Shown here one piece after another: positions 10,972 to 46,728 of a DNA stretch of 64,000 nucleotides (its first letter is position 1; each line of letters starts with the position of its first letter). Made by a program: the position numbers and the translations under genes. Below the pieces are notes generated by a model. It was not told the DNA's origin, searched no databases, and was given only the letters and a program-made list of their open reading frames with translations. This DNA comes from Verrucomicrobiota bacterium (lineage in GTDB: Bacteria > Verrucomicrobiota > Verrucomicrobiia > Palsa-1439): NCBI GenBank assembly GCA_016871575.1, contig VHCW01000002.1, positions 1 through 64,000 on the forward strand. The letters are read 5' to 3'.

Positions 10972-11077
10972 ACATTCGCCCCAACGGCATTGCGCTTTGA
11001 TTTCCCGCAACTGGTCAGGTCACATAACCAGCCGAACAACCTTGCCACCGGCAGCTCAAACAGGGAGAATCGCCCGC

Positions 11078-14000
11078 ATGAAAGCATCCCTCGCTCTGTT
11101 TGTTCTCGCACTCAACGCACTGGCTGCCGCACAACCCAATCTTCCCACCGTTGACCTCTCCGGCGACACCAATCGCCACGTCATCATCGCGCAAGGCACC
11201 GACACAATTTATCAGGGCCATCCGACGACCCTGCTGTTGCCGGACGGCAGGACCATGTTCTGCGTCTGGTGCGTCAACCACGGCGGGCCGTGCGGCCCGA
11301 TGAAACGCAGCGACGACGGCGGCAAAACGTGGAGCGGGTTGCTGCCGGTGCCGGACAACTGGCGCGACGTGAAGAACTGCCCGGCCATTTATCGTCTGGC
11401 CGATCCGCGCGGCAAGGCGCAGCTCTTCATCTTCGCCGGCCAAGGGCCGGACGGCGCGATGCACCAGTCCGTCTCCACCGATGACGGCAAGACGTGGTCG
11501 CCAATGACAAGCAACGGCCTCGTCTGTGTGATGCCGTTCTGTACGATTGTGCCGATTGATGGCGGCAAGAAATTGCTGGGCATGACCAATATCCGCCGGC
11601 CGGGCGAGACGAAGGACAAACGTTCCAATGTCATCACCCAGAGCATCTCGGAAGACGGCGGCCTGACGTGGAGCGCGTGGCGCATCCTGCTCGATCTCGG
11701 CGACCTCAAACCGTGCGAGCCGGAACTGGTGCGCTCGCCCGATGGCAAACAGTTGCTCTGCCTGTTGCGCGAGAACAAGGAACACATCGCGCTTTACATG
11801 ACCACCAACGACGAAGGACGAACGTGGTCCAAAGCGAAACCGCTGCCTCCGGGACTGTTCGGCGACCGGCACAAGGCTCTTTATGCGAAGGATGGCCGGC
11901 TCGTGGTCTGTTTCCGTGACACCGGCAAGGACAGCCCGACGAAGAATCATTTCGTCGCGTGGGTGGGCCGGTACGAGGACATTATCGCCGGTCGGGACGG
12001 CCAGTATCGGATCAAGCTCTTGCACAGTCACAAAGGCAGCGACTGCGGTTATCCCGGCGTCGAAATGCTCCCCGACGGCACCATCGTCGCCACCACCTAC
12101 ATCAAGTATCGCCCCGGCCCGGAGAAACATTCCGTTGTCAGCACGCGATTCAAGCTGGAGGAGATTGACGAGTTGAACAGGCGTCTCGCCTGTTCGCCGG
12201 TGACAGGCGAGACGCCTGTCCAACTTGCGAGCATCCTGCTCGATGACAGCGCGGGAGAATTCACCGGCGTCTGGGCGATCAGCGACAAGCTCACGCCCTT
12301 GGTTGGCTCCGCCTACAGGACCGCTGATCGCAAGCAGAAAGCCGCCGCCATCTTCACACCGGAGATTCCCGAAACGGGCCGTTACGAAGTGAGGTTGTTG
12401 TACGTTGCCGCCACAAACCGCGCGCGCAGCACCCGAATCACAATTCGCTCCGCCGATGGCGAGAAAACTGTGACGCTCAACCAACGCGAGCCGTGTCTGG
12501 AAGACGGCATCCCGCATTCGCTGGGCGTGTTTGCGTTTGCGAAAGGAAAATCCGTCTCCATCGAAATCTCCAATGCCGGCGCAGACGGCTACGTCGTGGT
12601 GGACGGCCTGCAACTCGTCCCCGAGGAGATCGCCAAGGCCGAACGCGCGACGAAAACCGGCGGGGGATTCCCAATCAAAGTCACTGCCGCTGCTCCCGTC
12701 AAAGTGCCGCCGCCGATGTTGCTGAAGAGCGCCGCCAAACCGCAGGACGTGGACGGCAAGACGTTTGACCTCGTCGTCATCGGCGGCACGCCGGGCGGCA
12801 TCGCTTGCGCGGTGCGGGCGGCCCGCGAAGGGCTGCGCGTGCTGTTGGTCAATCACACGCAACATCTCGGCGGGTTCATCACCAGCGGCGGCGGCGGCTG
12901 GGAAGCGCCGTATGACGGCCTGCGTTCGCCGCTCTACGGCGAGATGCTGACCGGCGCGGCGGAGTATTACCGCAAAACCTACGGCGAAAATTCGCCGCAG
13001 CATCTCGCCTCGATGCCCAGCGCAACGAGCCGGGCGCACATTGATCGCGCGAAGATCGAGCCGCGCATCGCCGAGATGTTGTTCAATCAAATGGTGGAGC
13101 GCGAAAAAACGCTGACAGTGTTGCTCGGTCATATCGTCGCCGGCGCAGAGCGCGACGGCGCTGTGCTGAAACGCGTGACGCTGCGAAAATGTGGGGCAGG
13201 TTTGCAACCTGCCATGCCGTTGATAAAAGATGGGCAGGTTGCAAACCTGCCCCACACTGTCCGCGTGAGCGCGAAAATTTTCGCCGACGGCATGTACGAA
13301 GGCGATCTCATGGCCGCCGCCGGAGTGAAAACGCAGATTGGCCGCGAATCGCGGGAACAATACGGCGAGCCGCACGCGGGCGTCATCTATGTAAAGGAAC
13401 GCCGCAAAGCGCCGGGCCAGCGCGGGTTTCCGAAGGACGCCGATGAAGGCCGTCTCAACATCCGCTACAACAGCCACGCCACCGCCGAAATCATTGAAGG
13501 GCCGAACAGCAACGAAGCCGACGGTTCCGTGATGGCCTACAACTACCGGCTCATCCTCACCCGCGAGTCGTCGAATAAGATCATGGTCTCGAAACCCGCC
13601 AACTACGATCCCGCCATCGCCAAGTCAGCCGTGGGCGGCGGTTTCGTGCCGAACCTGCCCAACAACAAAGTCGCATGGAACGGCGGCCGCCTCATCGGCC
13701 CGCAAAACGATTATCCCGGCGGCGACTGGGCGACACGCGAGCGTATTTCGCGTCAATATCTCGATGCGATGTTGATGCGCTTGTGGTGGCTGCAAAACGA
13801 TCCCACGGCGCCGGAGGCGGAGCGCAGGAGGTTTGCCGGCTACGGACTCGCCGCGGACGAATTCCCCGACAACAATCATGTGCCTTACGAGATTTACGTC
13901 CGCGAAGCCCGCCGATTGGTTGGGCGATACGTGTTCAAGGAGCAGGACAACATGATTGCCGAAGGCATTGCGCGGACGCCGATTCACCCCGACAGCGTTG

Positions 14001-14605
14001 CCATCACTGATTGGCCGGTGGATTCGGTTGCGTGCCTCCGACGGAGCGTGCCCGGCTCGAATCTCGACGGCATCTTCTTTCTTGCTGAAGAAGGCCGTCC
14101 GGCGCAGGTCCCGTATCGGAGTCTGTTGCCGAAGGAACTGGACAACCTGCTTGTGCCGGTCGCGCTCTCGGCGTCGCACGTCGGCTGGGGCGCGATTCGC
14201 CTCGAACCGGTCTGGATGCAAACCGGCGAGGCGGCCGGGTTTGCCGCCGCGCTGGCCGTGAACCAAAACACCACACCGGCGGCGCTCGATTCTGACCTGT
14301 TGATAAAGACACTGGCGAAGAACCGTGTGATGGTGAGTTTCTTCAACGACAAGGAGCCGATGGATCCCGCCCTCCAGTATTTCGGCACAAAAGGTTTCTT
14401 CCCTGACTACGACGCGAAACTGGATGCGCCGGTGACGGAGGCCGTGAAGACTGTTTGGCAGGACGGTTTTGCGAAGTTGAAAGACGGCAAGCTCGATCCC
14501 AATGCGCTCGCTCGCGCCGTTGCACAAGCAGAACGTAGCCGATCCGAAAGTGGAAGCCTCACTCGCGGCGCTGTGTTACAATCCATGTGGGAGTTACTCA
14601 AATGA
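11078..14605 (+). CDS. Three-part fusion: sialidase propeller, golvesin/xanthan-lyase-like sandwich, FAD-dependent oxidoreductase
   Basis: This is a 1175-residue secreted protein (MKASLALFVLALNALAAAQ signal; GGGAGA ribosome site). Residues ~20-365 form an Asp-box propeller ([33 protein letters not shown]) closely similar to the N-terminal half of the 26968-29220 protein. Residues ~367-381 are encoded by an in-frame palindromic repeat. Residues ~385-515 match the beta-sandwich that precedes the FAD domain in 35158-37485 (IFTPEIPETGRYEVRLLY, VVVDGLQLVPEE). From ~555 to the end is an FAD_oxidored domain (DLVVIGGTPGGIACAVRAAR). A second, longer palindromic repeat is read in frame at about residues 705-727. 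The fusion ties a sialidase-type domain to a redox domain in one chain. The next gene overlaps by ATGA. Confidence 0.88.
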   Translation: MKASLALFVLALNALAAAQPNLPTVDLSGDTNRHVIIAQGTDTIYQGHPTTLLLPDGRTMFCVWCVNHGGPCGPMKRSDDGGKTWSGLLPVPDNWRDVKNCPAIYRLADPRGKAQLFIFAGQGPDGAMHQSVSTDDGKTWSPMTSNGLVCVMPFCTIVPIDGGKKLLGMTNIRRPGETKDKRSNVITQSISEDGGLTWSAWRILLDLGDLKPCEPELVRSPDGKQLLCLLRENKEHIALYMTTNDEGRTWSKAKPLPPGLFGDRHKALYAKDGRLVVCFRDTGKDSPTKNHFVAWVGRYEDIIAGRDGQYRIKLLHSHKGSDCGYPGVEMLPDGTIVATTYIKYRPGPEKHSVVSTRFKLEEIDELNRRLACSPVTGETPVQLASILLDDSAGEFTGVWAISDKLTPLVGSAYRTADRKQKAAAIFTPEIPETGRYEVRLLYVAATNRARSTRITIRSADGEKTVTLNQREPCLEDGIPHSLGVFAFAKGKSVSIEISNAGADGYVVVDGLQLVPEEIAKAERATKTGGGFPIKVTAAAPVKVPPPMLLKSAAKPQDVDGKTFDLVVIGGTPGGIACAVRAAREGLRVLLVNHTQHLGGFITSGGGGWEAPYDGLRSPLYGEMLTGAAEYYRKTYGENSPQHLASMPSATSRAHIDRAKIEPRIAEMLFNQMVEREKTLTVLLGHIVAGAERDGAVLKRVTLRKCGAGLQPAMPLIKDGQVANLPHTVRVSAKIFADGMYEGDLMAAAGVKTQIGRESREQYGEPHAGVIYVKERRKAPGQRGFPKDADEGRLNIRYNSHATAEIIEGPNSNEADGSVMAYNYRLILTRESSNKIMVSKPANYDPAIAKSAVGGGFVPNLPNNKVAWNGGRLIGPQNDYPGGDWATRERISRQYLDAMLMRLWWLQNDPTAPEAERRRFAGYGLAADEFPDNNHVPYEIYVREARRLVGRYVFKEQDNMIAEGIARTPIHPDSVAITDWPVDSVACLRRSVPGSNLDGIFFLAEEGRPAQVPYRSLLPKELDNLLVPVALSASHVGWGAIRLEPVWMQTGEAAGFAAALAVNQNTTPAALDSDLLIKTLAKNRVMVSFFNDKEPMDPALQYFGTKGFFPDYDAKLDAPVTEAVKTVWQDGFAKLKDGKLDPNALARAVAQAERSRSESGSLTRGAVLQSMWELLK
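12177..12219. repeat. Palindromic repeat read in frame (17-base arms)
   Basis: The arms ACAGGCGTCTCGCCTGT (12177-12193) and its exact reverse complement (12203-12219) are separated by 9 bases. The element lies inside the fusion gene between the sialidase propeller and the beta-sandwich and encodes an interdomain linker (NRRLACSPVTGETPVQL) without breaking the frame. It appears to be a dispersed genomic repeat that has settled in a tolerant linker. Confidence 0.85.
13190..13256. repeat. In-frame 24-base-arm palindromic repeat, copy A
   Basis: The left arm 13190-13213 begins TGTGGGGCAGG and the right arm 13233-13256 is its exact reverse complement; a 19-base spacer separates them. Read in the host frame it encodes CGAGLQPA...GQVANLPHT within the FAD oxidoreductase domain of the fusion gene. 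Copies B and C lie at the equivalent place in two paralogues. Confidence 0.95.
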
Positions 14606-37549: not shown

Positions 37550-37572
37550 GATACCTCGTACTGCGAGGTATC
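37550..37572. terminator. Hairpin between convergent genes
   Basis: GATACCTCG (37550-37558) and CGAGGTATC (37564-37572) form a perfect 9-base-pair stem with a 5-base loop. It lies in the 85-base gap where the plus-strand glycan run meets the minus-strand res gene, and reaches the res stop codon. There is no T-tract, so it is a possible bidirectional terminator only. Confidence 0.4.
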
Positions 37573-40087
37573 ATGCTGAACTCAGAACAGCGTTTAGCTT
37601 TCGCTGCCACTCGTCGCCGAATACCAATTCGAACACGATTTTGCGCTCAGGGAATTCAAGCCCCAACTCTGTCCAACTTTTGGCCTCGGCAAGTTTATTG
37701 CAGAGCTTGAAGACTTTCTTCTTGTAGTCGGTGTCTTCATTCTTCAGGTGTATCCCCTTGGTTTCGACGACAAAGACCTTGTCAAAGTCGGTCTTGTCCG
37801 TCTTCTTGGTGTGCGACACTATGAAGTCGGGATAAATCTTGTGCTGTCGCCAGCCTTGAATCCGGTAATCTTGCCGCGACAGATTGCGATACCACCAGAG
37901 CAGTTGCCCTTGCTTCTCGAAGTACCACGCTACGCTTCTCTCTTCGCTGTTGAATGCGTCCTCCGGTACTTGTTCAAACAGGCTAAGCTCCAACTGCGTA
38001 TTGTCTTCGCGCGTCAACCGCCGCGCGCCTTTGCGAATCGGAATCCTGCTTGGCAGCCGGTAGCCCGCATCGTCTTTGAGCAGTAAGAACCGAAGTGTCT
38101 TGTCGCGAACCAATCCGTCGAACACTTCTTCCGCGAGCCGGTCGCGTTCCATCAACGCGCACTTCACCAACTCCTGTACAATGAAGACACAGTTCGTTCT
38201 GACCATGACGGCGGCGTGCTTATCTTCCAACACGGTGAATACATCACGCACAATGTTGTGTGCAATCCACGGATTGGGCACGGCCTCCAGCAACTGCCGC
38301 GTCGCAAAAACAAAGTCCACGCCAGCATCGGCGCTCGTCCGATACTTGCGTCCGGTTTCTTTCACCCGCTCGGCTCGATTGTCGGTCAAGGTCACGATGA
38401 TCTCGGTATCGGCGGCGGGCATGACATTCAACTGAAGGTTGCGCACAACGGAGAAGTCAGCCTTGTTCCAGTCAATCCCGCTCACGATGTCCGTCTCGTA
38501 ACTGACTTCACGCCAGTGCCCGTCTTGCTGAATCGCAAACACCGGCAGGTAAATCTTACCGGCAAATTGGCGAAACTTCTCGCGCAATCCGATGAGTTCT
38601 TCGCCTTGCACTTCGCTTTCGTCAGCGTCCATGACAACTTGCCCGGCCAGATCGCCCAGCCCTTCACCTTCAAAACCACGACGAATGCTCTCCACCAAGT
38701 TTGCGCCCTTTTGCCGGTAACAGAACACGTAGCTTTCGTCCAAATCCCTGACCTTCGTCTTGCGCGCAAACGGCTGCCGCAGAATTCGTCCCACCAACTG
38801 CGTCAGGTTGTTCTTGGAGGCCGGGTTTGTGAGGATCGTCAGCACATAAGCAAACGCGCAATCCCATCCCTCCTGTAACGCCTGCTTGGTAATGATGTAC
38901 CTGATCGGGCAGCCTCGGGCGAACAGGTTGATTCCTTCGATGTCGTCCTTCTCGCTGGACTTCACGGCAACTTGCCCCGCGTCCACGCCGTATTCCTTCA
39001 CCAAAAAGTCCACCACATCGTCGGCGTGAATGTAGTTGCCGCCGCGCTGATCTTTCCCGGTACGCTCGACCTGCACCAAGCAGATCGGGCGGATGTGGTT
39101 GCCGGTGTTCGCCTCATACTTGCCGGCAATCGTCTCCAATTCCTCGCGCTTCTTGATGCTGGCCAGCAACGTGTCTTTCCAGCGCGTGCTTTCCTTGTTG
39201 AAGACGTGCAAATCCAGCTTGATCATCTCCTCGCGTTTCAACTCCACGCCCTTGATGTCCACCAACACATTGCTCGCTTCCGTCGGCGTGGCCGACAACT
39301 CCACGATCACCGATGGATTCAACCCGCGCAGCGTGTCCTGCGCCCGCTCGCTGTATGCCTTGTGCCCCTCGTCCAGGATGACCACCGGCGCAAGCATCCG
39401 CAGCGTGTTGCCCAGCGAAGTCTTTACCTGCCGCTGGAACAATCCCTTGCCGTCCCCGAACGCATCCAGATTCGGAAACCGCTCCAACAACTTCGCGTGC
39501 CCCTGCACGTCATCGTCTTTCGGAAAGAACGCGCCGAAGCCGCCGCTGTCCTTGAAAACCTTCAACGTCTCCTTGTTCTCGCGATTTGCCGACGGCAGCA
39601 TCAGCGTGAGGATCACCAGATTCTCCACCACATCCTCCGGTGTGAACCGGTCAGTCTTTTCGTAAATCACCGTCCGTCCGCCGCTGGCGATGTCCAACAC
39701 CTGCCGGTACGGATGATCGCGGTCGCGCAAATGCTCGATGGTCTGCCGGTAAATCTGCGTCGTCGGCATCACCCACAACACCAGACCGATTTGCTTCTGC
39801 CGATAAACGCGATTGATGATGTCAACCGTGTGAGCCGCCAGCAACGTCTTGCCACCACCGGTCGGGATTTTCAGGCAGAAGTTCGGCAGCCATTCGCCCA
39901 AGCCGTTCTTGCGCGACCGGTAGTTCTTGCCGCCAACTTCTTCCCACGCCTTTTGCGGCACATCCAACGCGGCTTCCTTGCCCGCTGCTTCGACAACCTT
40001 CTCATTCTTCGCGCGCCACCGGTTCAGCGCCTCCAAATACGCCTTCACCTGTGCAAGCGCCCGCTGCTGGTATTCCTTGAGTTCCAT
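37571..40087 (-). CDS. res: Type III restriction endonuclease subunit Res
   Basis: This 838-residue cytoplasmic protein has a superfamily 2 helicase core: IPTGGGKT (Walker A), VILDEGHKAYSE (DExH), ELSATP (motif III) and QLVGRILRQPFARK (motif VI). A C-terminal nuclease-like YPDFIV ... VVETKG (PD-(D/E)xK) follows. It would cleave unmodified DNA together with the Mod subunit encoded just upstream on the same strand. The ATG is preceded by GGTGA. The reading frame is intact. The region is less GC-rich by eye than the flanking glycan genes, consistent with horizontal acquisition. DEAD/Res proteins without restriction activity exist, but the adjacent mod gene supports type III restriction-modification. 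Confidence 0.92.
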   Translation of the reverse strand: MELKEYQQRALAQVKAYLEALNRWRAKNEKVVEAAGKEAALDVPQKAWEEVGGKNYRSRKNGLGEWLPNFCLKIPTGGGKTLLAAHTVDIINRVYRQKQIGLVLWVMPTTQIYRQTIEHLRDRDHPYRQVLDIASGGRTVIYEKTDRFTPEDVVENLVILTLMLPSANRENKETLKVFKDSGGFGAFFPKDDDVQGHAKLLERFPNLDAFGDGKGLFQRQVKTSLGNTLRMLAPVVILDEGHKAYSERAQDTLRGLNPSVIVELSATPTEASNVLVDIKGVELKREEMIKLDLHVFNKESTRWKDTLLASIKKREELETIAGKYEANTGNHIRPICLVQVERTGKDQRGGNYIHADDVVDFLVKEYGVDAGQVAVKSSEKDDIEGINLFARGCPIRYIITKQALQEGWDCAFAYVLTILTNPASKNNLTQLVGRILRQPFARKTKVRDLDESYVFCYRQKGANLVESIRRGFEGEGLGDLAGQVVMDADESEVQGEELIGLREKFRQFAGKIYLPVFAIQQDGHWREVSYETDIVSGIDWNKADFSVVRNLQLNVMPAADTEIIVTLTDNRAERVKETGRKYRTSADAGVDFVFATRQLLEAVPNPWIAHNIVRDVFTVLEDKHAAVMVRTNCVFIVQELVKCALMERDRLAEEVFDGLVRDKTLRFLLLKDDAGYRLPSRIPIRKGARRLTREDNTQLELSLFEQVPEDAFNSEERSVAWYFEKQGQLLWWYRNLSRQDYRIQGWRQHKIYPDFIVSHTKKTDKTDFDKVFVVETKGIHLKNEDTDYKKKVFKLCNKLAEAKSWTELGLEFPERKIVFELVFGDEWQRKLNAVLSSA

Positions 40088-40102
40088 TGTAATTCACCTT
40101 CG

Positions 40103-40160
40103 CCGCGTGAGGTCACGCGGCCTACAGTTGATCGTTGTAGGCCGAGTCACCCGGCTCGGC
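40103..40160. repeat. Cluster of three adjoining hairpins in the mod-res spacer
   Basis: In the 86-base gap between mod and res there are CCGCGTGA/TCACGCGG (40103-40120), GGCCTACA/TGTAGGCC (40119-40143) and GCCGAG/CTCGGC (40141-40160), each a perfect short inverted repeat. They overlap at their edges, giving a composite repeat. It could attenuate or stabilise the mod-res transcript or simply be a dispersed genomic repeat. Confidence 0.7.
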
Positions 40161-40173
40161 GTTTGCGTTGTTC

Positions 40174-41802
40174 TCATCTGGCCAGCTTGTAGATTTCAAA
40201 CGGCAACTGCGCGAAATCAATCCTCAGCGCGTCGAGTTGCTCCTGATCGAGATACTTCGTCGGCGCGAACACCAGCCGCCGCTTGCCATTCGCCTTCGGC
40301 TTGCCGAGTTCTTCCGCCCGCTCCAGCGTCAGCGCGGTCTTTTTCAGGTGGTCAATGTCCGGCTTGTAGAACAGATAAACCTCGTGATTCTTCGACTCAC
40401 CGACGAACTGCCGCTTCTCGTTCATCTTCCGCTCATCAAACTCCTCGCCGGTCGCCGTGTAGAACACATACCGGGCGAGTTCCAGATAGCTCGGCAGATT
40501 CTTGCCATCCAAAATGCTCTCCAACTCAATCGGCTTGCCCAACTCGAAATAGCTGAACGTGCCGCCCAAACCTTTTTTCAAGTCTTCATCGCTCGCGCCA
40601 CGCACACCTTTGATGACGCGCCGTACACGTTCCGCCGTGATTTCGTCGGCGTAGTCCTCGCACTCGACGAGAATGAACTTTCGGTTGCCGCCATCTTCTT
40701 TGTTCAACGCGAGAGTGGCGTGTGCCGTTGTACCGCTGCCAGCGAATGAGTCGAGCACGATGGAGTCTTTCGCTGTTGTGCGCTCAATGAAAAGCTTCAC
40801 CATCTGAAATGGTTTTGGGTTCTCGAAGACATCTTTCTTGCCGAAGATATCCGTCAGCGTGTTCGTGGCGTCGCCGGTAGTCGCAAGGTCAAACAGGATG
40901 CTCCGCTCCTTGATCTTGCGAGCTTTCCCTTCCTCAAATCTGACTTTCTCGTAGGCAACCCACGTGTCGCCCTTCTTCTCCCAGTGCATGAGATCGTTTT
41001 CGACCAGCAAGTCCGCTCGCGCTTTGCCCACGCGCCACCTGCCAGCACGGCCATCCGGTGTTTTCGGGTAGACGTTTGTTCCGTCCGGTGCCTCAAGCGG
41101 GAAATACATCTTTGGACGGTCTTCTCGTCTCGCACCTGATCCCCACTTCGCGAGTTTCACCGCTACAAACTTGCCTTCTTTATCTGACTTGTTGAAGTCT
41201 GCCTCTTCAAGAGGAATAGACTCATCAAGCCACTCGAACTCTTCGGACTTCGCGTAGACCTGAACGTATTCGTGTTCGGTCACAAAGTAATCGTCAGTCT
41301 GTCCGCCGCCCTCTTTCTTTCTCCAAATGAACGTGCCAACAAAATGCCCTTGGAAAACTTCGTCCATTAACATGCGCATGTGGTGAGTTTCGATGTTGTC
41401 GATGGAAGCGAAGATCACGCCGTCATTGCTGAGGAGTTCACGGAGGAGTTTCAACCGGGGCATCATCATGCAGAGCCACTTGTCGTGGCGGGTGAGATCG
41501 TCCCGGTCAACGGTCTTGCCAAGCCACTCTTGAATCATCGGGGAGTTGACGTTGTCGTTGTAGACCCAGCCTTCGTTGCCGGTGTTGTATGGCGCGTCAA
41601 CATAGATGCATTTCACCCTGCCGGCGTAGGTCGGCAACAGCGCCTTCAACGCCTTCAAGTTGTCGCCGTGGATGATGAGGTTGTCGTCGAGCCGGACCTT
41701 GTCGGTGAGGCTCTTGTCCTTCTTCGGGACAAGCTCGTGATACTTCACCGTCAGATGATAATTCTGCACCAGGGCTTTGCCTTTGAAATCGAGCGTGGCC
41801 AT
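40174..41802 (-). CDS. mod: Type III DNA methyltransferase subunit Mod (adenine-specific, beta class)
   Basis: The 542-residue product is an N6-adenine or N4-cytosine methyltransferase of the type III Mod group. The catalytic motif IV comes first (CIYVDAPYNTGNEGW, ~55-70) and the SAM-binding motif I later (LDSFAGSGTTAHA, ~350), the order of the beta class. Motif IV reads DAPY rather than the common DPPY. The region between (GGGQTDDYFVTEHEYVQVY) resembles family members of this type, and the variable target-recognition region lies at ~190-320. GGGAGA precedes the start. It lies 86 bases upstream of res and is probably co-transcribed with it. Confidence 0.92.
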   Translation of the reverse strand: MATLDFKGKALVQNYHLTVKYHELVPKKDKSLTDKVRLDDNLIIHGDNLKALKALLPTYAGRVKCIYVDAPYNTGNEGWVYNDNVNSPMIQEWLGKTVDRDDLTRHDKWLCMMMPRLKLLRELLSNDGVIFASIDNIETHHMRMLMDEVFQGHFVGTFIWRKKEGGGQTDDYFVTEHEYVQVYAKSEEFEWLDESIPLEEADFNKSDKEGKFVAVKLAKWGSGARREDRPKMYFPLEAPDGTNVYPKTPDGRAGRWRVGKARADLLVENDLMHWEKKGDTWVAYEKVRFEEGKARKIKERSILFDLATTGDATNTLTDIFGKKDVFENPKPFQMVKLFIERTTAKDSIVLDSFAGSGTTAHATLALNKEDGGNRKFILVECEDYADEITAERVRRVIKGVRGASDEDLKKGLGGTFSYFELGKPIELESILDGKNLPSYLELARYVFYTATGEEFDERKMNEKRQFVGESKNHEVYLFYKPDIDHLKKTALTLERAEELGKPKANGKRRLVFAPTKYLDQEQLDALRIDFAQLPFEIYKLAR

Positions 41803-42156: not shown

Positions 42157-44472
42157 ATGAAAGCGTCACTCACCATCATCCTCGCTTTGTTCGCAACGTT
42201 GTGCGCCGCCCACGCGGCGCCGCTGTTGGAGAAGATTGACATCTTCGAGTCCGGCACGGACGGCTACGCGCTCTATCGCATCCCCGGCGTGGCGGTGACG
42301 AAGAAAGGCACTGTGCTCGTTTGGTGCGAGGCGCGCAGGACGGGCAAGGGCGATTGGGGACCGATTGATGTGATGATGCGCCGCAGCACCGACGGCGGAA
42401 AAACGTGGTTGCCACGACAGTGCATCGTCCACGTCAAAGGCGAACTGCCGGTCAATCCAGTCGCTGCCGCACAGAAGCTCGACAAACCTGGCGACAACAC
42501 CGCCAACAATCCCGTCGCCATCCCCGACCTCGAAACCGGCGCGGTTCATTTCCTCTATTGCCTCGAATACATGCGCTGCTTCTACATGCGCAGCGACGAC
42601 GAGGGCGCAACATGGTCGAAGCCGGTTGAGATCACGGCGACATTCGATCGGTTCCGAAAAGAATACGACTGGAAAGTCATCGCCACCGGTCCGAACCACG
42701 GCATCCAACTCACGCACGGCCCGCACAAAGGCCGACTCGTTGTGCCGGTCTGGATGTCGCTCGGCACCGGCGGCCACGCGCACCGTCCGTCGGTGACGAG
42801 TACGATTTACAGCGACGATCACGGCAAAACATGGCAACGCGGCGAGATCGCAATCCCCGACAAACCGCCGTTCCGTTACCCGAACGAGACCGTCGCCGTG
42901 CAACTCACAAATGGAAACGTGCTGCTCAACGCCCGCAGCGAGTCCGACGCGCATCGCCGCCTCGTCTCGACCAGTCCCGATGGCGCCACGCAATGGTCGC
43001 AGCCGCGTTTTGACGATGCGTTGCTGGAGCCGATCTGCATGGCGAGCATGGTCCGGTTCGACACCAAACGAATCCTCTTCGCCAACCCCCACAATCTCGC
43101 CCGTCGCGACAAGAAGGAAGCGCCCGGCAAATCCCGCGACCGCATCAACCTGTCCGTCAAACTCAGCTCCGACGAAGGCCAGACATGGCTCGTCAACAAG
43201 CGGCTGGAAGAAAGTTTCAGCGCGTATTCCGACCTCGCAGTGATCAAGGACGGCACGATCCTCTGTTTCTACGAAGCCGGCGAGAAAGGCCCTTACGAAA
43301 AACTGCGGCTGGCCCGGTTCAACATGGAATGGCTGACTGCGATCGAAACTCCCTTGGAATTCATTGACACCAGCTTCGAGAACGCCTCGCCGCTCTGGTA
43401 CGAGATTGCCGGCGACGGAACCATCATGGTCAACCTGCTCTACGACCATGAACGCAATTCGCCCAACCGCGCCGCCGGGCACATTCATTTTCTGCTCCAC
43501 GCACAGCCCGGCTCGAAACTCACGCTCGAATTCAAGAACCTCGACAATGTTTGGAACGGTCGCCCCGGCTGGGTCGGCAGGGAATTGAATACCGTCGTCA
43601 TTTCCGAGAACGGCAAGGAGTGGAAACCGGTCGCCACGGAAAAACTTCCCGAGAACCGGGTGCGCGTGACCGTCGAGATGCCGGGGCCGCGATTATACGT
43701 GGCGCGCATCGAGCCGTACCGGATTTCCGATCTCGACCGGCTGCTGGCGTCCATCCGCAAACACCCGCTCGTCGAGATCACGCCCATTGGCAAGACCGTC
43801 GCCGGACGAGGACTCGAAATCGTCCGCGTCGGCGACCCGAAAGCGGCGCACCGCGTCTTCATCCGCGCTCGCGCCCATCCGTGGGAGAGCGGCGGCAACT
43901 GGGTCGTGCAAGGATTCATTCGCCGCCTTCTCAAGGAGCCGCAGCGCTATTGCGCCTACATCCTGCCGATGGCGAACAAGGACGGCGTGGCGCGCGGCAT
44001 GACCCGGTTCAATCTTCTCGGCAAAGACCTCAACCGCAATTGGGACAAGCCCGCCGACCCGCTGTTTGCGCCGGAGAACGCCGCACTGGAGAAATGGTTG
44101 GACGCGATGAGCAAGGCAGGGCGTCGTCCGCATCTGGCGCTGGAGTTGCACAATGACGGTCACGGTCGCTTGCACATCAGCCGTCCGCCGGTGCCGGACT
44201 TGGAGCGGTATCTGGAGCGGATGGCGACATTGGAGACGCTGTTGCGCCAGTACACATGGTTTACCGAAGGCAGCACGAAAGCGACGTTCCGCAACCCCGG
44301 TTCGCTCGGCGACGGCTGGCTGGAGCGGTTCGGCATTGACGCCGTGGTCCACGAGTTCAACTGCAACTGGATCGCCGGGCTGAACGACTACGCCGTGGGC
44401 CGGCATTGGGAAAGCTACGGCGAGAAACTTGTGACCGTGTTGGCCGAGTATTTCCAAACAACGAAACCCTGA
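42157..44472 (+). CDS. Secreted fusion of GH33 sialidase and M14-type zinc carboxypeptidase
   Basis: The 771-residue product has a Sec signal (MKASLTIILALFATLCAAHA). Residues ~20-405 are a canonical sialidase: YRIPGVAVTKKGTVLVW, Asp boxes STDGGKTW and SDDHGKTW, ETVAVQLTNGNVLLNARSES, and SAYSDLAV...CFYEAGE. A beta-sandwich (~410-530) links to an M14 peptidase domain: zinc ligands His 574 and Glu 577 in RAHPWESGG, substrate-binding LGKDLNRNW, third ligand His 665 in LELHNDGHG, and catalytic Glu 733 in VVHEFNCNW. The enzyme could desialylate and then trim glycoproteins such as mucins. A terminator follows. It has no clear ribosome site. Confidence 0.92.
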   Translation: MKASLTIILALFATLCAAHAAPLLEKIDIFESGTDGYALYRIPGVAVTKKGTVLVWCEARRTGKGDWGPIDVMMRRSTDGGKTWLPRQCIVHVKGELPVNPVAAAQKLDKPGDNTANNPVAIPDLETGAVHFLYCLEYMRCFYMRSDDEGATWSKPVEITATFDRFRKEYDWKVIATGPNHGIQLTHGPHKGRLVVPVWMSLGTGGHAHRPSVTSTIYSDDHGKTWQRGEIAIPDKPPFRYPNETVAVQLTNGNVLLNARSESDAHRRLVSTSPDGATQWSQPRFDDALLEPICMASMVRFDTKRILFANPHNLARRDKKEAPGKSRDRINLSVKLSSDEGQTWLVNKRLEESFSAYSDLAVIKDGTILCFYEAGEKGPYEKLRLARFNMEWLTAIETPLEFIDTSFENASPLWYEIAGDGTIMVNLLYDHERNSPNRAAGHIHFLLHAQPGSKLTLEFKNLDNVWNGRPGWVGRELNTVVISENGKEWKPVATEKLPENRVRVTVEMPGPRLYVARIEPYRISDLDRLLASIRKHPLVEITPIGKTVAGRGLEIVRVGDPKAAHRVFIRARAHPWESGGNWVVQGFIRRLLKEPQRYCAYILPMANKDGVARGMTRFNLLGKDLNRNWDKPADPLFAPENAALEKWLDAMSKAGRRPHLALELHNDGHGRLHISRPPVPDLERYLERMATLETLLRQYTWFTEGSTKATFRNPGSLGDGWLERFGIDAVVHEFNCNWIAGLNDYAVGRHWESYGEKLVTVLAEYFQTTKP

Positions 44473-44598: not shown

Positions 44599-46728
44599 AT
44601 GAGCAAGCAGCCTTGTACTTCCATGAATCGCCGCCGGTTTTTGCGCAATGTTGCGGTCTGGTCGGCGGGCGCAGCGGCAGCGGCGCCCATCGTTCGTGGC
44701 CTGCCGCGCGCGGAAGGCGCCGCGCCTCAAACGCCGGCAGCAGTTGCAGGAAAGGGGACTGGGTCCGAGGCGTTGGCCGGCAGAGCCGTGACAGGCTCGG
44801 CGGCGACTGGAACGAAGATCAAGGATTCCGAATCGGCGTCGCATGGGGCGGCGGATGCTTTTCACCAGATTGTGGACACGTACCGGTTTCCGGGGTTTGA
44901 GGTTGTCCAGTTCAATTTGCCGGTGTTGAGCCATTATTCGTACCTGCTTGTGTCCGGCAACGAGGCGTTGTTGGTGGACCCCTCCCGCGACATCAATGCC
45001 TACCTTGAGCACGCGAAGAAGAACAACCTGACGATCAAAGGCGTGTTCCTTACGCACTCGCACGCGGATTTCGTGGCGGGACATCTCGAAGCCGTCCGCG
45101 CGTTGTCCATGCCCATCTTCCAGAACGCAGCCAGCGGCGCGCAGTACAAGATCCAACCGTTGCAGGAAGGCTCGACGTTCCGCGTCGGCAAAGCCACGGT
45201 GAAAACGATTGTCACGCCGGGACACACTCCCGATGGGATGTGCGGACTGGTCATTGCCGATGGCGAGACCGGGCCGCGCGCCATTTTCACCGGCGACACG
45301 TTGTTCGTCGGCTCGATTGGGCGGCCGGACCTGCTCGAAGGCACGATGACAGCCGCGACGCTGGCCAACATGAGTTACGAGACGTGGCACAATAAACTCT
45401 CGAAGCTGCCCGATGCCTGCGTGGTCTTGCCGGCGCACGGCGCGGGATCGTTGTGCGGCGCGAATTTGTCCGATGACCCGTCGTCCACGATTGGCCGGGA
45501 AAAGGCGTCGAATCCGTACGTCCGGAAGAAAGGCCGCAGCGAGTTCATCGCAGCGGTGCTCGAAGGATTGCCGGAAGCGCCGCAGTATTTCAAACACAAC
45601 GCGGCGATGAACCGCATCGGGCCGCCGTTGGTGAACTGGGACGCCGCGCCGAAGGCCGCGCCCGTGGCGGAGTCCATCACGAAAGCCGGCGGCCAATGGA
45701 TCGTGGATTTGCGCGAGGCCAAACCGTACGCCGCCGGGCACCTGCCGGGTTCGGTCAACATTGCATTGCGGGGCCGGGTTGAAACATGGGTTGGCACGAT
45801 GGTGCCGTGGAAGGCGCCGATGGTGTTGGTCGGCTCGGACGCGGAGATCAAGGAAGCGGTGTTCCGCTTGCACCGGGTCGGTTACGAAGGCGCGGTGTTG
45901 CCGTTCGATGCGTGGGCGAAAGCCGGATTGCCGGTCGCCCAGAGCGGGATGATTTCGCCCGCCGAGTTGTACGCCCAGATGCAGGCCGGCACGGCGCCAA
46001 TCATCGTGGACGTGCGGATGCCGCACGAATGGATGGGGATGCGCATCGGCACGGTGGTCAACCTTCCGATCACGCACTTGGCCGAGTTGTCCGGCAAACT
46101 CGACCCGAATCTGCCCGTCGTTGCCGTCTGCAACAGCGCGTACCGCTCCAGCCTCGCTGTCGGCATTCTCCAGCGGCGCGGTTTCCAGAACGTCGCCAGC
46201 CTCGACGGCGGCAGCGCGGCATGGATTGATGCCGGGTATCCCGTCTTCGGCAGCGAACAGAAAACCGCCGCGGCGCCGCCGCAACGCCACGTTCACATTG
46301 CCGAACGCATCTCGCCCGCCGACCTCAGCCGGCTCATCAAGGACATGCCGGGCACGTTCGACCTCGTGGACATCCGGCCTGCCGATGCGTTTGCGGATTA
46401 CGCGTTGCCGGGTTCGCGTCGGGCGGATTTGGCCGACGTGCTGGAAAACCCCGGCTACCTTGTCGGGGCCGGGCCGTTGATCCTCGTGGACCGGGACGGT
46501 TCGCTGGCGATGATGGCCGCCGGCATCCTCTCGCAAAAAACCAAGCGCCCGATCAAGGCGTTGCACGGCGGGCTGGATGCGTTTTGGGAAGAGACCGAAC
46601 TGAAAGGCGCTGTTCGCTCCGTGCCGATGCAGCCCGCCCCCGCGCGCCCGCACGCCGCGCCCCCGTCGTCGGCGCCGTCGGTTCCGTCGGCGCCCGCTGC
46701 GCCGAAACGGAAATCGGCTGGTTGTTGA
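44599..46728 (+). CDS. Tat-exported persulfide-dioxygenase-like MBL protein with three rhodanese domains
   Basis: The 709-residue product has a Tat signal (MNRRRFLRNVAVW). The MBL domain (~95-330) has THSHADFVAGH (~152), PGHTPDG and FTGDTLFVGSIGRPDL (~230), the ETHE1/CstB persulfide dioxygenase pattern with iron ligands. Three rhodanese-like domains follow: ~340-445 (no catalytic Cys), ~450-550 with active CNSAYRS (Cys 511), and ~575-685 (no Cys). A proline/alanine-rich tail ends in KRKSAGC. It would oxidise glutathione- or protein-bound persulfide to sulfite and transfer sulfur in the periplasm. Known CstB/ETHE1 enzymes are cytosolic or mitochondrial, so the Tat signal is notable. It is followed by two YeeE genes. 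Confidence 0.88.
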   Translation: MSKQPCTSMNRRRFLRNVAVWSAGAAAAAPIVRGLPRAEGAAPQTPAAVAGKGTGSEALAGRAVTGSAATGTKIKDSESASHGAADAFHQIVDTYRFPGFEVVQFNLPVLSHYSYLLVSGNEALLVDPSRDINAYLEHAKKNNLTIKGVFLTHSHADFVAGHLEAVRALSMPIFQNAASGAQYKIQPLQEGSTFRVGKATVKTIVTPGHTPDGMCGLVIADGETGPRAIFTGDTLFVGSIGRPDLLEGTMTAATLANMSYETWHNKLSKLPDACVVLPAHGAGSLCGANLSDDPSSTIGREKASNPYVRKKGRSEFIAAVLEGLPEAPQYFKHNAAMNRIGPPLVNWDAAPKAAPVAESITKAGGQWIVDLREAKPYAAGHLPGSVNIALRGRVETWVGTMVPWKAPMVLVGSDAEIKEAVFRLHRVGYEGAVLPFDAWAKAGLPVAQSGMISPAELYAQMQAGTAPIIVDVRMPHEWMGMRIGTVVNLPITHLAELSGKLDPNLPVVAVCNSAYRSSLAVGILQRRGFQNVASLDGGSAAWIDAGYPVFGSEQKTAAAPPQRHVHIAERISPADLSRLIKDMPGTFDLVDIRPADAFADYALPGSRRADLADVLENPGYLVGAGPLILVDRDGSLAMMAAGILSQKTKRPIKALHGGLDAFWEETELKGAVRSVPMQPAPARPHAAPPSSAPSVPSAPAAPKRKSAGC

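Follow-up and report, generated by a model that had tools for sequence, protein, structure and literature searches.

Both of the enzyme families considered here are already known. The GH33 exo-sialidase of Micromonospora viridifaciens (1eur/1eus/1eut) has a propeller fold with an Arg triad, a Tyr nucleophile, a Glu, an Asp acid/base, and Asp boxes, and it carries a carbohydrate-binding module. The CCP-type M14D enzymes of S. denitrificans (3l2n), B. cenocepacia (4b6z), and P. aeruginosa (4a37) have a two-domain fold, zinc ligands, an Arg/Asn-Arg carboxylate site, and a catalytic Glu; they are stand-alone and are called cytosolic. Their N-terminal beta-sandwich is CCP-specific, and no substrate is known for the one bacterial CCP that has been tested, that of B. 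cenocepacia (PMC3940198). Here, both kinds of enzyme were found in a single chain, encoded by one gene in a window of 64,000 nucleotides (the whole stretch of DNA that was analyzed). The fusion protein shares the fold and active-site residues of both counterparts, and the Asp boxes of the sialidase. It is 28% identical to the M. viridifaciens sialidase and carries a peptidase instead of the carbohydrate-binding module, and it is ~20% identical to the M14D enzymes and appears to be exported.

The fusion gene (42157 to 44472, + strand) was defined by its open reading frame and translation, by Pfam, and by matches to PDB sequences. It runs uninterrupted from ATG to stop over 771 aa. Read by eye, residues 1 to 20 (42157 to 42216; MKASLTIILALFATLCAAHA, followed by A) form a putative Sec signal peptide, by which the protein is probably exported. 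A GH33-type sialidase with a six-bladed propeller follows (residues 21 to 394, 42217 to 43338; Pfam, PDB matches, alignment, model, and Foldseek), and the junction, placed by alignments of both halves, lies at residues 394 to 397 (43336 to 43347). Beyond it come the CCP-type N-terminal beta-sandwich of the peptidase (residues ~397 to 521, 43345 to 43719; model and Foldseek) and the M14 catalytic domain (residues ~522 to 771, 43720 to 44469; Pfam, alignment, model, and Foldseek), all on the + strand. In the 771-aa protein, Pfam matched BNR_2 at residues 69 to 368 (E 7e-26) and Peptidase_M14 at residues 537 to 632 (E 1e-10), both exceeding the curated cut-offs. Structures were predicted for each half separately, each from an alignment of its relatives, and both folds were confident. 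Each half is firmly a member of a known family on every testable feature, and sialidase plus M14 is a new domain architecture built of known parts. The initial annotation had proposed a secreted chain joining a sialidase to an M14 peptidase; the frame, the Pfam matches, and the two folds confirm the joining, and the putative signal peptide supports secretion. Its further claim, that both halves keep their catalytic residues, also held, as every residue lies where it was placed and is conserved in the alignments described below.

For the sialidase half, the nearest PDB sequence is the GH33 sialidase of M. viridifaciens (E 1e-38). By alignment with 1w8n/1eut, R41 (in YRIP), R260, and R329 are the Arg triad, D66 is the acid/base, and Y357 and E244 are the Tyr/Glu pair, all of which are retained. 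Across 30 aligned sialidases, D66, E244, R260, R329, and Y357 are invariant; the position of R41, the first Arg of the triad, is occupied by His in three (L097, L068, and L101), which perhaps have a different sugar specificity. Four Asp boxes (SxDxGxTW) lie at residues ~77, 146, 219, and 337, one covered by a BNR/Asp-box Pfam match above cut-off (residues 217 to 228) and the other three read by eye. With the AF2 model of this half (pLDDT 91.9, pTM 0.90), the top Foldseek matches were all sialidases, the best being 1eur/1eus (E 4e-32), and TM scores to the M. viridifaciens enzyme were 0.76 to 0.85. From what is known of the family, this half would take an alpha-linked nonulosonic acid off a terminal position, and that sugar may or may not be sialic acid.

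For the M14 half, the nearest PDB sequences are bacterial CCP-type M14 enzymes (3l2n, E 3e-19). Its model (pLDDT 88.3, pTM 0.90) matched 3l2n, 4b6z, 3k2k, and 4a37 over the whole length in Foldseek, with TM scores of ~0.8, followed by CCP5. Since these whole-length matches include the N-terminal beta-sandwich, the second half is an entire CCP-type (M14D) enzyme and more than a bare M14 domain. Thus, the M14 zinc carboxypeptidase proposed initially stands as to family but not as to extent, as a whole CCP-type protein begins at residue ~397. The zinc ligands H574, E577, and H665, the catalytic E733, and R617, N626, and R627, which by comparison with BcCCP bind the substrate carboxylate (PMC3940198), are retained in the fusion protein and invariant in 26 aligned M14 sequences. 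Fourteen residues before E733, D719 stands opposite Lys330 of BcCCP by simple residue count, and this position is D or E in 25 of the 26 sequences and N in one. Deglutamylase-type CCPs have an S1' Lys/Asn that suits acidic residues, and the S1' preference of the fusion protein may therefore differ. By analogy with the family, this half would trim C-terminal residues in a zinc-dependent manner.

The zinc domain might instead resemble the M14-fold AstE/AspA deacylases and hydrolyze amide bonds on the glycan itself, where amino-acid or acyl groups would decorate an acidic sugar; a single decorated sugar would then be the target of both sites. The fold relation to AstE/AspA is real: AstE_AspA_cat is a secondary match in the fusion protein and is above cut-off, at 30 bits, in the M14 orthologue L037. 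Side-group removal would also fit the hydrolase partner of the sister sialidases and the SGNH esterase of others, and carbohydrate-degrading genes surround the fusion gene. However, the AstE_AspA_cat match of the fusion protein itself (23 bits) is under the 25-bit cut-off, whereas the M14 score is above its own and is the higher of the two in both this protein and L037. The CCP N-domain and the match to the whole CCP fold, at a TM score of ~0.8, likewise argue against a glycan amidase, which we regard as improbable.

At the junction (WLT-AI-ETPLEF), the final sialidase strand leads directly and in frame into the M14 protein at its mature start, with no linker, no second signal peptide, no sialidase stop, and no M14 start. 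The stand-alone M14 protein L034 has ETGLEF at the equivalent place. Alternatively, two separate genes might have been joined in a mis-assembled contig; the source is a draft of 257 contigs in which the fusion was observed once. However, the contig carrying it is 114 kb long, the in-frame junction falls only a few residues from either domain boundary, and it would take a large coincidence for the sialidase stop and the M14 signal peptide to be lost so exactly. In addition, the junction DNA occurs a single time in the genome, the next match, to a sialidase paralogue, being 81% over 71 bp. The fusion thus looks genuine and a misassembly unlikely, with very little probability left for such an artefact. 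The differences at codon positions 1, 2, and 3 were 0.15, 0.10, and 0.34 between the M14 half and L034, and 0.16, 0.13, and 0.37 between the sialidase half and L036. In both halves they fall mostly at third positions, a pattern expected under purifying selection.

Relatives were sought by a pattern scan of ~85,000 species genomes, which provided the coverage of Planctomycetota, and in genomes drawn from the same class and phylum. An M14 orthologue was present in 15 of 384 class genomes (the window's own and 14 others, at 49 to 82% identity). The orthologues are stand-alone proteins, mostly of 400 to 460 aa. Those of Verrucomicrobiota and Planctomycetota (e.g., L034, L037, and L040) are 58 to 82% identical over the whole half, apart from one at 48%, and have the same starting residue as the M14 half but, unlike it, a signal peptide of their own and no sialidase; the signal-peptide-like segment sits immediately ahead of the point where the M14 half starts. 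A few orthologues have longer open frames, in which there is no sialidase and the extra N-terminal part reads as noncoding upstream sequence. The M14 half of the fusion lacks 7 residues near residue 598 (43938 to 43965, RRLLKEP-------QRYC) that are present in nearly all orthologues. Around the M14 orthologues, only the M14 gene itself recurs widely. Of 22 loci, 4 had sulfatase-like genes (by eye) and 3 had GHL6 proteins, numbers too small to build on, and conserved neighbors were therefore set aside.

Neither the pattern scan nor the class and phylum draws yielded another genome in which a single frame encodes both halves. None of 50 further M14 loci from the class, which the Pfam model had picked up and which included the longest frames, contained a sialidase domain belonging to this group, and no plasmid record held both halves. 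No sialidase-M14 enzyme was found in the literature, where full text and annotation are partly searchable. Within these searches, the initial view that no described enzyme has this combination is uncontradicted, and the domain-architecture check it called for returned no family with the same architecture beyond the fusion-bearing genome.

The sialidase relatives are numerous and about 50 to 82% identical, and they were never joined to M14. Residue ~394, following ...EWLT, is where all of them stop or switch partner. Some are stand-alone and end there. Others continue into an alpha/beta-hydrolase (L036 by Pfam; L041, L081, and L085 to L087 by eye), an FAD-dependent oxidoreductase (L051 by Pfam; L050, L052, and L056 by eye), an SGNH hydrolase together with an FAD oxidoreductase (L049, Pfam), GH88 (L112, Pfam), or another BNR domain accompanied by hydrolase, golvesin-like, or FAD domains (L108 to L111 and L114, by eye). 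The alpha/beta-hydrolase (L036, L041, and L081) and FAD oxidoreductase (L049 to L052 and L056) fusions share the sialidase group and the fusion point with the protein described here, but carry a serine-type hydrolase or an oxidoreductase in place of M14. With its second enzyme after residue ~394, the fusion protein belongs to what we define here as the PVC sialidase multi-enzyme group. Thus, these sialidases often carry a second enzyme, a pattern that the initial annotation overlooked and that makes an M14 fusion less surprising; what is new is M14 as the partner, found nowhere else in our searches.

In a maximum-likelihood tree, the sialidase of the fusion is sister to the alpha/beta-hydrolase fusions L035, L036, L041, and L081 (support 100/98), and M14 therefore probably represents a further exchange of partner at a joint that tolerates such changes. 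M14 probably either replaced an alpha/beta-hydrolase or joined before the hydrolase was gained, and the tree fits either order. Along its length, the sialidase half (42157 to 43338) reads as a mosaic, ~90% identical to L036/L035 over residues 31 to 270 and 60 to 70% thereafter, with residues 271 to 300 nearer to L039 (87%), as though recombined.

A hinge of this kind might accept any secreted C-terminal partner. On that account, an unlinked M14 gene displaced the ancestral alpha/beta-hydrolase or joined the free end of the sialidase, and both domains work on unrelated substrates. The five or more other partner types at the same hinge, the sister position to the alpha/beta-hydrolase fusions, and the occurrence of the fusion in one genome only among those searched fit such a chance event. 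In addition, orthologues of the two halves lie at unrelated loci in other genomes (e.g., G020, G003, and G038), so no operon history binds sialidase and M14 to one substrate. The sialidase (E <1e-90) was present in 36 of 384 class genomes overall and in 13 of the 15 genomes with an M14 orthologue. However, a control with distant M14 genes gave 6 of 7; the co-occurrence therefore reflects genome type, and it was rejected as a specific functional link. The conservation of both halves after joining and the exactness of the join at both domain edges speak for more than chance, although both are compatible with it. We consider a chance fusion without coupling somewhat unlikely.

Our preferred reading, held tentatively and at slightly less than even confidence, is a lineage-specific fusion acting as a coupled two-site degradative enzyme on a shared glycopeptide substrate. 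A GH33-type exo-sialidase with its own signal peptide would have gained a whole secreted CCP-type M14 enzyme at its C-terminus, and the captured enzyme would have lost its own start and signal peptide. Most likely in the periplasm or at the cell exterior, the propeller would cleave terminal sialic acid (or another nonulosonic acid) by the retaining Tyr/Glu mechanism, and the zinc site would next trim amino acids from the C-termini of the same glycopeptides or of others close by. Being fused, the two activities would stay side by side and equal in quantity. In favor of this reading are the completeness of both halves, with conserved catalytic residues and confident folds, the excess of third-position changes in each, the signal-peptide-like segment of the M14 relatives, the second enzymes that many related sialidases carry at the same hinge, and the sister position to the alpha/beta-hydrolase fusions. 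Secretion, both activities, and the shared substrate are all deduced from sequence and family knowledge.

Joint action on sialylated glycopeptides is plausible given two active sites on one exported chain and two gene pairs of the same genome. On contig C33 (L183), a gene for a LamG plus CCP-type M14 protein (Laminin_G_3, Peptidase_M14) adjoins, in the same orientation, a gene with weak BNR_2 similarity, and on C60 (20162 to 22146, L003) a sialidase paralogue (39%) adjoins a NanA/DapA-like aldolase gene, likewise in the same orientation. Against a shared substrate stand the unlinked families elsewhere, the nonspecific co-occurrence, a polysaccharide-type gene cluster nearby, and NanE, for which nothing above cut-off was found in the fusion-bearing genome. 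A stricter version, in which a bifunctional exo-sialidase/carboxypeptidase physically couples desialylation to C-terminal trimming of the same glycopeptide and would be a previously undescribed two-step deglycosylating peptidase, seems to us rather unlikely.

If the two sites cooperate, sialylated glycopeptides could be processed with this protein as a ready-made tool, and the fusion would hint at glycoprotein feeding by these bacteria. In any case, at least six kinds of catalytic partner have been accepted at the permissive C-terminal joint of this propeller sialidase, and the series forms a natural set for studying the origin of bifunctional enzymes. For secreted CCP-type M14 enzymes, the fusion also gives a first hint from context; what bacterial CCPs act on was unknown in PMC3940198.

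An attack on mucin or other sialoglycoproteins, as first suggested, found nothing specific in its support. The genome appears to be that of an uncultured, environmental Verrucomicrobiota and has 44 BNR_2 matches in a 5.2-Mb draft. Upstream of the fusion gene, a large carbohydrate cluster (913 to 37485, + strand) contains several BNR_2 proteins, two sulfatases, FAD_oxidored (PF12831) in five scanned proteins, and one protein with all three lambda-carrageenase domains; it looks like a cluster for the breakdown of sulfated polysaccharides. The fusion gene lies outside this cluster, beyond a type III restriction-modification pair on the opposite strand (37571 to 41802, - strand; res subunit by Pfam and DNA methyltransferase by eye), and shared transcription is not evident. 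Within the cluster, a further multi-enzyme chain, BNR_2 plus Golvesin_C plus FAD_oxidored, is encoded in one 1202-aa frame (10997 to 14605). Downstream of the fusion gene, a 709-aa protein (44599 to 46728) combines a metallo-beta-lactamase fold with one or more rhodanese domains, and its gene is followed by genes that resemble, by eye, those of sulfur transport.
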